NCBI GenBank assembly: GCA_951812525.1
Contig: OX638316.1
Coordinates: forward strand, 3,032,506 to 3,096,505
Length of the DNA stretch: 64,000 nt
Source of the DNA: an uncultured Poribacteria bacterium
Lineage (GTDB): Bacteria; Poribacteria; WGA-4E; WGA-3G
Direction of reading: 5' to 3'
The notes below the pieces were generated by a model. That model was not told the origin of the DNA, searched no databases, and was given only the letters and a program-made list of their open reading frames with translations. Shown here piece by piece: positions 2,982 through 27,846 of the stretch (its first letter is position 1; each line of letters begins with the position of its first letter). The position numbers and the translations under genes were made by a program.

Positions 2982-4023
2982 AGATATATACAGTTGGAGT
3001 GTCTTTAGCCCTGAACGGCAAGTAGATTTTAACGGGCATTTGTGGGTGCGTCCTGACGGCAATGTTCTCATAGACCCTGTTCCGATGTCCGATGCCGACT
3101 ATGAACACCTGACAGCACTCGGCGGCGCGAAGTTGATTGTGCTTACAAATGCGGATCATGAACGTGAAGCGGCTATTTTTCGGGAGCGGACCGGTGCCGA
3201 AGTGATTGTGCATGAGGCAGATGCGGACGCCTTGAGCATCACACCGGCAAGAACCGTTCAGGACCGAGAGGCGATTGTGCCGGGCTTACATGCCATTCAT
3301 CTCGATTATGGAAAAAGTCCTGGCGAGATTGCACTCTACTTCCCAGAGAAAGCCGCTGTTCTATTTGGAGATCTGGTTGTAGGTACACCGATGGGCGCAT
3401 TGACCTTGCTCGCCGATGAAAAGTTGGCTGACCCGCCTAAAGCAGCACTTGAACTCCGTAAGATTTTGGGACTCCGTTTCAATGCGATTCTCGTTGGCGA
3501 TGGACATTCCATCTTTAAAGATGCACGTCAGTACCTTGTTGATTGCTTGCAGGCGCGCCGGGATATTTACATCAACCGCATCCATATCGACGAAATAGAG
3601 TGGCAGTATAAGAATGCACCGCACCCTTATGATTTTGAAGACAAGGACATTGACCCACTCATCGGCGGCAAGAATTTGGGGTATCGCGTTATCCGCCTTC
3701 TACCCGGTAAGATGAGTTTCCCCATGCATTTTCACAATTTCGGCGAAGAGATGTGCTACGTCATGGAAGGGACCTGTACCCTCAAGACCCCACGGGGTGA
3801 CGCCGAAGTCAGGGAAGGGGATTTCATTGCGTTTCCGCCCGGCACGATCGGGGCACATAAATTTGTAAATAACAGCGATACGCCAGTCGTGCTGTTCATT
3901 CTCGGTACCACCATACCGCACGATGTAAGCGAGTATCCTGATTCCAACAAAGTGTTGCCTTATGTCGTCGGGAAGATCTACCGTAAAGACCCAAGCCTGA
4001 GTTATTGGGATGGCGAAGTTTAA
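2962..4023 (+). CDS. MBL-like domain fused to a cupin domain
   Basis: 353-residue two-domain protein. Residues about 1-200 look like a metallo-beta-lactamase fold: LIDPV near 38, LTNADHERE at 61-69 where an HxHxDH motif is expected, FGDLVVG at 135-141, and VGDGHS at 178-183. Most zinc ligands of the first motif are therefore missing; only D65 and H66 remain. Residues about 240-330 are a complete cupin with motif 1 (H256, H258, E262/E263) and motif 2 (FPPG...H299), likely metal-binding. Start chosen at 2962 because of the GAGGTG ribosome site; an earlier in-frame start lies inside the lipoprotein gene. Function unknown; a sugar-related lyase or isomerase is possible. Confidence 0.75.
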   Translation: MKRLIFEDIYSWSVFSPERQVDFNGHLWVRPDGNVLIDPVPMSDADYEHLTALGGAKLIVLTNADHEREAAIFRERTGAEVIVHEADADALSITPARTVQDREAIVPGLHAIHLDYGKSPGEIALYFPEKAAVLFGDLVVGTPMGALTLLADEKLADPPKAALELRKILGLRFNAILVGDGHSIFKDARQYLVDCLQARRDIYINRIHIDEIEWQYKNAPHPYDFEDKDIDPLIGGKNLGYRVIRLLPGKMSFPMHFHNFGEEMCYVMEGTCTLKTPRGDAEVREGDFIAFPPGTIGAHKFVNNSDTPVVLFILGTTIPHDVSEYPDSNKVLPYVVGKIYRKDPSLSYWDGEV

Positions 4024-4026
4024 GAG

Positions 4027-5397
4027 TTAGGTCTCCTCAAGTTTCAACCGACGCACTCTCTGATTTTCTTTTGCTCGTGCGTCTTCTCGTTCTGGATCAA
4101 GAACCGCACGCAAGGCAAGTTCCATTTCGCTACGTATCGCTGCATGTTCGGGCTTTGATGCTAAGTCATCGATCTCTAACGGGTCAGTATCCACGTTGAA
4201 CAGCTGCGGTTCGCTTCCGACGTAATGGCACAATTTGTAATCCCCACGCTTGAGCATGAATCCAGCGTTAAGCATACCCATGTGATGGTACTCTGAGAAG
4301 ACAGCACGAGCTGTTTCGTCTGATTCCTGTTGAGCTATTCCTAACAGACTGTCGCCCGGTAAATCAGAGGGTGCTTCCAGGCCTGCGATCTCCAATAAAG
4401 TCGGTAAGACATCTACCAGAGAGACGTTTTGTGCCACGCGACCGTTCTCACCTGAAGGTAAGCGCACCATGAGTGGCACCTTTACTGCTGGTTCGTAGAA
4501 ACACTGTTTCTGCCAGATACCGTGGTGTCCAGCCATCTCACCGTGATCGCTGGTGTAGATGACAACCGTATCTTCGCGTAGTGGTGACGTGTCAATTGCC
4601 TCCAATATCCTTCCAATCTGAGCATCGAGAGCCGAAACAAGTGCGTAATAGCAAGCTAAAGCACAACGCACGGTTGCTTCAGGCGGTGGGATGTCGTTCC
4701 GCCACGACCAACGGTGGTGTTGGATTATCGGGTGTTGCGATTCGAGCGGTTCGTTCCACGTGGCAGGTAGTTCAAGCGCGTCCGGGTCGTACTGTGCGTA
4801 GAATTCGGGAGGTGCAATCAGTGGGAAGTGTGGGTGCATGAATCCGCAGTAAAGGAGGAAGGGGTTATCATCTGGCGCAGCTGCTTTCTGATTAAGGAAG
4901 TCTATTGCCAAGTCCGCGACGTTTCTGTCATATCTTGTGTGTTCGTGGTCTCCCGGACCGCATTCAGCGACGTGCGAATTGGAACCTCGACGTTCGTCGG
5001 ACGTACGCCGCGGTGGGCGACCCGTTGAACGGCACCACCGAGGTAGGTCATCAAGTAGACGATGGGAGAAGCCGAGAAGTCGATCCGATCCGTTGAAATG
5101 CGTTCGTCCGCATAATACAGTCTCATAATCCGCCTCCACCAAATAGTCGCCCCACGTCTGGTGCTGCCGTCCATCAGCAATTGCCGCCAAATCCCACGCT
5201 TCGATCTGATGTGGATAGCGTCCAGTGAGCATGGACAAGCGTGAGGGTGTACAGATTGGATAATTGCAATAAGCGTTGTCGAATGTATAACTCTGCTCGG
5301 AGAGACGGTCGAGATGCGGGGTCTGGACAACGGGATGTCCGCTATTTCCCATCACACCCCCGGCGTGTTCATCTGAAAATAAAAAGACAATGTTCAT
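4027..5397 (-). CDS. Type I sulfatase, alkaline-phosphatase superfamily
   Basis: 456 residues. Hydrolyses sulfate esters. The N-terminal FLFSDEHAGG supplies metal-binding acidic residues and C49-T-P-S-R53 is the sulfatase signature whose Cys is converted to formylglycine. TSDHGEMAGHHG is the second metal/active-site region. No signal peptide is visible, so the enzyme is predicted to be cytoplasmic and would act on imported small sulfated substrates. It converges with the MBL-cupin gene (4 bases between stops). The two other sulfatases in the window (6144, 46405) are clearly diverged from it. The substrate cannot be inferred; choline-sulfatase-like and glycan sulfatases share this layout. No formylglycine-generating enzyme gene is in the window. 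Confidence 0.92.
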   Translation of the reverse strand: MNIVFLFSDEHAGGVMGNSGHPVVQTPHLDRLSEQSYTFDNAYCNYPICTPSRLSMLTGRYPHQIEAWDLAAIADGRQHQTWGDYLVEADYETVLCGRTHFNGSDRLLGFSHRLLDDLPRWCRSTGRPPRRTSDERRGSNSHVAECGPGDHEHTRYDRNVADLAIDFLNQKAAAPDDNPFLLYCGFMHPHFPLIAPPEFYAQYDPDALELPATWNEPLESQHPIIQHHRWSWRNDIPPPEATVRCALACYYALVSALDAQIGRILEAIDTSPLREDTVVIYTSDHGEMAGHHGIWQKQCFYEPAVKVPLMVRLPSGENGRVAQNVSLVDVLPTLLEIAGLEAPSDLPGDSLLGIAQQESDETARAVFSEYHHMGMLNAGFMLKRGDYKLCHYVGSEPQLFNVDTDPLEIDDLASKPEHAAIRSEMELALRAVLDPEREDARAKENQRVRRLKLEET

Positions 5398-5517: not shown

Positions 5518-5668
5518 TAGGGGCGCTTAGTTTATACATTTACTTTATATCTGAGAATATTTTTCCCTGCTTTTACCCATCCAACTCGGTAGGCACGGTT
5601 TCCCAACCGTGCCGGTCTGGCAAAAGAGCGCGTAAGACCCAATAAATTCTTAAAACTAAATGACCCTA
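5518..5668. mobile_element. MITE-like element, copy 1
   Basis: 151-bp noncoding element bounded by imperfect inverted repeats: the left end reads TAGGGGCGCTTAGTTT and the right end reads AAAACTAAATGACCCTA, which is TAGGGTCATTTAGTTTT on the other strand. It aligns along its whole length with the copy at 27623-27771. A 28-bp palindrome of the GGTAGGC family (5588-5615) sits in the centre. No target-site duplication is obvious around this copy. Confidence 0.7.
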
Positions 5669-24403: not shown

Positions 24404-24431
24404 GGTAGGCGCGGTTTCCTAACCGCGCCGG
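24404..24431. repeat. GGTAGGC palindrome, solo copy
   Basis: 28-bp palindrome ggtaggcgcggtttcctaac... ending cgccgg, with arms CGCGGTT/AACCGCG. Same family as the central parts of both MITE copies (5588, 27693) and as 29152-29179. Compensatory changes between copies (cacgg/ccgtg, cgcgg/ccgcg, cgagg/cctcg) keep the arms paired. Confidence 0.8.
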
Positions 24432-26732: not shown

Positions 26733-27284
26733 CTAACTTCTATTCAACAGTGCAGCCGTTTCCTCAGTGATTTCCCATCCAACGTGGGGTATGTGCCTAA
26801 CATATCCATCGTTGTGAAGATGACAAAGGATACCCCAAACCAGCGAGTTACTTCTGGCAGAATCCCTGTAATCGACTTTAGGTATACCGAGACGATGCCT
26901 GATTTCTTCGAGTTGAATAGGTCCCTCGGACTGTGCTTTGAGTAAAATATCCAGCACTGACTCTTTGAGATCGAATAGAGCCTCGTGTGCACATCGTTTG
27001 TTTGTTTCCATGTGTGCCCGGAGCACGGTGTTAATCTGTGCACTATAATCAACGTTACGGGCTTTGAACCACTTTAAGAGATCTGGATCAATACGCATAA
27101 CATGAGAGGGAAGAGGAGCCGTTTTCCAGAAAGTTTCATCGGTGGGTTGAGCATCTTTATCATTAAGCGCATCCTGATAAACTTCTTCGTCGCTCATTTT
27201 ATCGACTTTCTCCCAATCAGTTTCATCGGGAACATGTGCGAGTTCTTCACGAGTATATTTGACTAAAGTAGATTTGTCTTTCAT
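26733..27284 (-). CDS. brnA: BrnA-type antitoxin with C-terminal extension
   Basis: 183 residues. Residues 1-98 are BrnA-like: TDWEKVDKMSDEE, then VMRIDPDLLKWFKARNVDYS and INTVLRAHMETNKR, the ribbon-helix-helix C-terminal part that binds the brn operator and neutralises BrnT. Ordinary BrnA ends about there; here roughly 85 residues follow, with VLDILLKAQSEGPIQLEEIR, LGIPKVDY and LVWGILCHLHNDGYVRHI, which look like a winged helix-turn-helix. Start chosen at 27284 (AAGGAAGG upstream), overlapping brnT by 38 bases. Likely represses its own operon. Confidence 0.82.
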   Translation of the reverse strand: MKDKSTLVKYTREELAHVPDETDWEKVDKMSDEEVYQDALNDKDAQPTDETFWKTAPLPSHVMRIDPDLLKWFKARNVDYSAQINTVLRAHMETNKRCAHEALFDLKESVLDILLKAQSEGPIQLEEIRHRLGIPKVDYRDSARSNSLVWGILCHLHNDGYVRHIPHVGWEITEETAALLNRS

Positions 27285-27525
27285 TCTTGGTTGCCTTCCT
27301 TGCTGAAATAATGCGACGCGTGTTGCCACGCCACGTATAAACCACATACAAGAGACGACCCGCGCTTCGACCAAGGACAACGATTCTTTCTTCGCCGTAG
27401 TCGTATCGAACATCTACGCGTTCTATCCGATCTGGATCATCAAAGACGAGAGAAGCGCGTTTGAAACTAATTCCACGTTTTTGGATGCATTCTTGATTCT
27501 TTTCTTCGTCCCATTCAAATTCCAT
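27247..27525 (-). CDS. brnT: BrnT ribonuclease toxin
   Basis: 92 residues. RelE-fold ribonuclease of a type II toxin-antitoxin pair; cleaves RNA to stop translation. Family features: FEWDEEKNQECIQKRGISF at the start, then AXLVFDDPDR-like (ASLVFDDPDRIERVD), YGEERIVVLGRSAGRLLYVVY, and RIISARKATKNER with the conserved Arg and Glu near the end. First gene of the pair on the minus strand, with its 3' end overlapping brnA, the usual order for this system. The neighbouring MITE-like element suggests an insertion-prone region. Confidence 0.88.
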   Translation of the reverse strand: MEFEWDEEKNQECIQKRGISFKRASLVFDDPDRIERVDVRYDYGEERIVVLGRSAGRLLYVVYTWRGNTRRIISARKATKNERQIYFSQIYS

Positions 27526-27622
27526 TATGGCGGGTTTGAGGCATATCTTATCCTAATTTTTATAGATTGTGTACAGTATAACATACTTTGTACGAATAAT
27601 TAAGACAAATCTATTGAAACAG

Positions 27623-27771
27623 CAGGGCATTTAGTTTATATATTTACTTTATACTTGTGAGTATTTTCCATCTTTTTGTACCCATCCAACCCGGTAGGCA
27701 CGGTTTCCTAACCGTGCCGGAAACAAAAAAAGGCGTAAAACCCAATAATTTCTTAAAACTAAATGACCCTA
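27623..27771. mobile_element. MITE-like element, copy 2, with 10-bp target duplication
   Basis: About 149 bp between two identical direct repeats ATTGAAACAG at 27613-27622 and 27772-27781. Left end CAGGGCATTTAGTTT and right end AAAACTAAATGACCCTA are inverted repeats. The centre holds a GGTAGGC palindrome (27693-27720). It matches the copy at 5518-5668 across its full length. There is no coding capacity, so a transposase elsewhere must have moved it. The gap between brnT and the next gene (27526-27846) otherwise holds nothing I can support. Confidence 0.78.
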
Positions 27772-27846
27772 ATTGAAACAGGCGTACGTGTACGTTCAGG
27801 TGCCGGACACGGGATCCGTCCAAACAGAGGGCATAAATTTGGTTTG

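Follow-up and report, generated by a model that had tools for sequence, protein, structure and literature searches.

A MITE upstream of a brnT/brnA-like gene pair

We analysed a stretch of 64,000 nucleotides (hereafter, the window) on contig OX638316.1 of an uncultured Poribacteria bacterium, whose genome is represented by one 5.06-Mb contig with a completeness given as 96%. A brnT/brnA-like toxin–antitoxin pair is encoded on the minus strand of the window (26733–27525). A miniature inverted-repeat transposable element (MITE; Table 1) is inserted upstream of it, at a distance of 88 bp from where brnT starts (27525). The stretch adjoining this insertion is conserved in congeners, and a putative local effect of the insertion near the brnT start is possible.

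Copies of ATTGAAACAG abut both ends of the MITE, which confirms the exact 10-bp direct repeat noticed in a first-pass annotation made from the nucleotide sequence alone. The same annotation had described a 149-bp noncoding element with inverted-repeat ends, and this description also held: the arms are paired at 92% over 13 nt (27625–27637 with 27756–27768), and no open reading frame of at least 80 amino acids lies between the two duplicated target sites. Comparison with the family showed that the left end is one base short, reading CAGGG-CATTTAGTTT where the family has CAGGGKCATTTAGTTT. Allowing up to three mismatches, the 17-mer of the right end occurs at only two sites in the window (0.16 expected), one in this MITE and the other in the relative at 5518–5668. 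The latter is indeed a full-length copy, as had been claimed, and it carries no target duplication.

Table 1. Features of the MITE and related repeats. Positions refer to the window unless a locus (L) is named.
Feature	Position	Strand	Remark
Target-site duplication (10 bp), left copy, ATTGAAACAG	27613–27622	+	exact match to right copy
MITE, type A, 149 bp	27623–27771	+	family comparison, coincident ends
Left terminal inverted repeat, CAGGGCATTTAGTTT	27623–27637	+	one base deleted relative to family
Internal GTAG-tagged REP-like hairpin, GGTAGGCACGGTTTCCTAACCGTGCCGG	27693–27720	+	
Right terminal inverted repeat, TAGGGTCATTTAGTTTT on minus strand	27755–27771	-	
Target-site duplication, right copy, ATTGAAACAG	27772–27781	+	
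Second type A MITE copy	5518–5668	+	83% identical, without target duplication
REP-like hairpin within second MITE copy	5588–5615	+	
Free-standing REP-like hairpin of the same type	24404–24431	+	stem triplet CGC, outside any MITE
MITE hairpins with replaced loop	L131 3452–3800; L132 1700–1945; L133 2110–2226; L134 1686–1910; L016 about 1560–1660		

Copies with coincident ends, target duplications and empty sites

Searching the genome with the window element returned ∼14 copies of nearly full length alongside numerous partial copies. The right end (TTAAAACTAAATGACCCTA, at most one mismatch) was found at 39 genomic sites compared to none for the reversed control, and the core AGGGKCATTYAGTTT at 118 sites compared to one in the control. 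Reading of the genomic loci revealed two types of interior between common ends: type A, to which the window copy belongs (∼150 bp, hairpin GGCACGGTT..AACCGTGCC), and type B (∼143 bp, hairpin CCCGAATAAATTCGGG). From the loci fetched, we collected at least 42 copies with paired, coincident ends. Strict target duplications (either 10 bp, allowing a single mismatch, or an exact 9 bp) flanked 15 of these 42 copies, whereas shuffling the right flanks among the copies 2000 times gave 0.40 on average and never more than 4. The window copy was counted through the 9-bp criterion, because the base lost from its left end places the script's boundary one base outside. The duplication size of 10 bp proposed in the first-pass annotation is therefore correct for the window copy, and across the family it is either 9 or 10 bp. 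The 27 copies at which a strict duplication was absent are presumably old or rearranged. Two type A copies in this genome are 98% identical, so some of the movement must have been fairly recent. Several putative open frames span the insertion junctions at copies with duplications. Two loci have unusual arrangements: one MITE (L003, 4767715–4767864 of this genome) is flanked by a direct repeat of ∼29 bp (CTGTGGAGTGATTTGAGATTGACAGAGGT), far longer than the usual duplication, and at another locus (L042, 3651769–3652060) two type B MITEs stand in direct tandem with ∼9 bp between them.

Empty sites in relatives were found for two other copies. The site of the type A copy at 409797 (duplication AGAAAAAAGG) is empty in congener G028, where homology continues across the junction with no gap and a single, diverged target copy is present; that of the type B copy at 2379715 is empty in G024 and G028. 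The evidence is weaker for the window copy. Congener G023 has kept the neighbours on both sides (the brnT side and the side of a mandelate-racemase-like gene) and is free of the MITE, but because the target sequence itself has diverged there, G023 shows the absence of the MITE and not the exact pre-integration sequence. In eight other congeners, homology ends at about the insertion point, with other sequence beyond, which is uninformative on the MITE. Coincident ends, duplications and empty sites together support the reading of the first-pass annotation: the window element is a genuine MITE.

The family extends to other Poribacteria. In a scan of one genome per species, covering 84,980 species and possibly leaving out the records of the genome studied here, the exact right-end pattern was detected in 31 stretches, every one of them in records titled Poribacteria. 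Among the loci fetched from congeners, 25 of 29 could be paired. These MITEs are mostly ∼131 bp long with a GTAG hairpin, a frequency that is partly due to selection, as the pairing script required a hairpin-like motif; strict duplications were present at 12 of them. In the part of the literature that was covered, we found no link of Poribacteria to such repeats and no description of an ISAs1-derived MITE.

The MITE ends resemble those of ISAs1 insertion sequences

The family, which the first-pass annotation did not recognise, can now be placed as ISAs1. A domain search found the ISAs1-associated domain PF13808 in 15 of 40 genomes, the genome under study not being among them. Three tested transposases belong to ISAs1 family NF033564 (NCBIfam; 207–213 bits against a cut-off of 70) and carry PF13808 plus PF01609, and in congeners such a transposase sits between MITE-type ends. 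The congeneric ISAs1 elements are ∼1.34 kb long (1338–1347 bp where the flanks are complete), and their ends (for example, CAGGGTCATTCAATTTTAAGA and CAGGGCCATTTAGTTTTAAGA), which begin with CAGGG or CAGAG and typically continue with NCATTYARTTTT, resemble those of the MITEs. Exact 9- or 10-bp duplications were present at all 16 testable poribacterial ISAs1 loci, several of which represent the same element repeated within a single genome; a 17th locus (L170), truncated at the end of its contig, was left out. An annotated ISAs1 element on a Streptomyces plasmid, which served as an external control, has the ends CAGGGGCCGTTGCATGATCG and CAGGGTCCCTTGCATGATCG and an exact 10-bp duplication, while a second annotated control has CAGGG ends and no clear duplication.

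The match to the ends of these insertion sequences reaches 17 of 17 positions for MITE ends of other congeners and is mostly 14–16 of 17 for those in the genome studied here, compared to at most 12 for random 17-mers from the window. The similarity is confined to the terminal ∼17–21 bp, and the right MITE end in this genome starts with T where the insertion sequences start with C. Since MITE ends match the insertion sequence ends of their own host genome no better than those of other genomes, we make no claim of co-evolution.

Using one transposase as the query, we found matches, either whole or as fragments, in 25 of 37 congeneric genomes and none in the genome under study, even at E≤10; no resident partner is therefore demonstrable there. 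A transposase with the same termini, for which the first-pass annotation had recommended looking, thus exists in the congeners as a member of the ISAs1 family and could not be detected in the MITE's own host. The MITEs look orphaned, because their genome is without a detectable transposase though 25 of the 37 congeners have it or its remains. We infer that an ISAs1 transposase was the moving agent and that the partner element was once present in this lineage and later lost; that loss is inferred rather than observed because the completeness of the genome is 96%.

Taken together, the window element is very probably a non-autonomous MITE of the ISAs1 family, moved in trans by an ISAs1-type DDE transposase. 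Such a transposase would recognise the ends of ∼17 bp (CAGGGKCATTYARTTTT) and integrate the element at cuts staggered by 9–10 bp, from which target duplications of 9–10 bp would follow. The terminal ∼17 bp and the duplication size are shared with the ISAs1 insertion sequences themselves (NF033564), from which the MITE differs in its length, in having no transposase gene and in an interior that is dissimilar past the first ∼17–21 bp. Being non-coding, and in a genome in which no ISAs1 transposase was found, it was filed solely as a non-autonomous derivative of ISAs1 and not as an autonomous member. IS-derived bacterial MITEs have been described before, such as MITEPye1, with IS1182-like ends (PMC11578231), and MITEAba12 (PMC6382973). 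Like these, the poribacterial MITE is small and non-coding, with IS-like ends, flanking duplications and presumed mobilisation in trans; unlike them, it belongs to a different parent family, carries a REP-type hairpin mid-element and has a parent insertion sequence that is undetectable in the host genome. A repeat family of these sponge symbionts gains a parent family and a mechanism, based on its empty sites, its ends and the size of its duplications. Its MITEs persist in a genome in which the transposase can no longer be detected.

A REP-type hairpin within the MITE

In general terms, the window MITE is a mobile element of a familiar kind, in which the REP-type hairpin at mid-element is unusual; its retention is the most interesting detail of the element. 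With the stem triplets left free, the hairpin pattern GGTAGGNNNGGTTTCCNAACCNNNCC had 47 matches in the genome and none in the control. These hairpins lie inside type A MITEs (stem CAC/GTG) or are free-standing, and in 44 of the 47 the stem triplets are exactly complementary, falling into four stem types (CAC/GTG, 18; CGA/TCG, 14; TGC/GCA, 9; CGC/GCG, 3). The internal hairpin thus shows what defines GTAG-REPs, namely the GTAG tag, a short stem-loop, complementary stem variation and free copies. In addition, a RAYT-like Y1_Tnp protein of 157 amino acids is encoded at ∼2370012–2370485 within a hairpin array (∼2369277–2371000; L136 about 3277–5000). The anatomy of GTAG-tagged REPs has been described (PMC3733652), as have RAYT transposases (PMC2817692). 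The poribacterial hairpin resembles these systems in its tag, its complementary stem variation and its free copies beside a Y1 gene, and differs in sitting within an element that has its own inverted-repeat ends and target duplications.

In several MITE hairpins, the loop is replaced by a common segment (TTGCGGCGTACTCGACC...ATGCGATCTGCATT) that is also present in free REPs (Table 1). In some of them, this segment holds nested small hairpin units and reaches up to ∼200 bases.

Carried mid-element, the hairpin could either aid mobility or be a mere passenger. The MITE may have captured a REP, or the free hairpins may derive from MITEs. A bolder reading, which we regard as possible but rather doubtful, is that throughout the genus a REP hairpin of RAYT type has been permanently incorporated into a DDE-transposon MITE, its base-pairing being kept, with different complementary stems across copies and genomes, because it serves one of the two systems. 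If true, the substrate of one transposition system is being spread by the other. The presence of the REP-type hairpin in MITEs of many congeners offers a concrete case for asking if DDE transposases spread REPs.

Alternative explanations

The element could be read as a REPIN- or BIME-like unit that owes its spread to the RAYT-like Y1 single-strand transposase; the hairpin would then be what the enzyme acts on, and the ends would be of no importance. The GTAG-REP form of the hairpin and the free copies surrounding the Y1_Tnp gene would fit such an origin, but the duplications and empty sites show that the inverted repeats, and not the hairpin, mark the limits of the mobile unit, and type B shares the ends without having the type A hairpin. 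Y1 transposases are also not known to produce target duplications of 9–10 bp. Duplications and empty sites bounded by inverted repeats thus largely refute this origin, which we consider highly improbable. Movement by a DDE transposase of another family that makes 9–10-bp duplications and still resides in this genome is very unlikely as well: the transposase survey of the genome, which covered DDE_Tnp_1 and ISAs1, did return 15 DDE_Tnp_1 matches, but none of these 15 loci, considered as candidate partners, is flanked by paired MITE ends, and it is the ISAs1 elements of congeners that carry MITE-type ends.

The strong predicted fold of the window element (−42.1 kcal/mol, z −5.1) and its intergenic position would also be expected of a structured intergenic repeat that does not move and owes its flanking direct repeat to chance. 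This explanation, to which we assign almost no probability, is refuted by the empty sites and by the duplications, which are present at 15 of 42 copies where chance would yield 0.4.

Two further loci of this genome involve MITE ends or DDE transposase genes. A 1.4-kb element (L113 2147–3554; 4062147–4063554) has both MITE ends, hairpins near each of them and a 9-bp duplication with one mismatch, and one of its open reading frames matches a Fic-like C-terminal/PadR winged-helix domain. No transposase was seen within it, and it is taken as another non-autonomous member. At the other (L098 and L099; 4130122–4130583 and 4133953–4134414), two DDE transposase genes with identical translations lie in opposite orientation, ∼3.4 kb apart.
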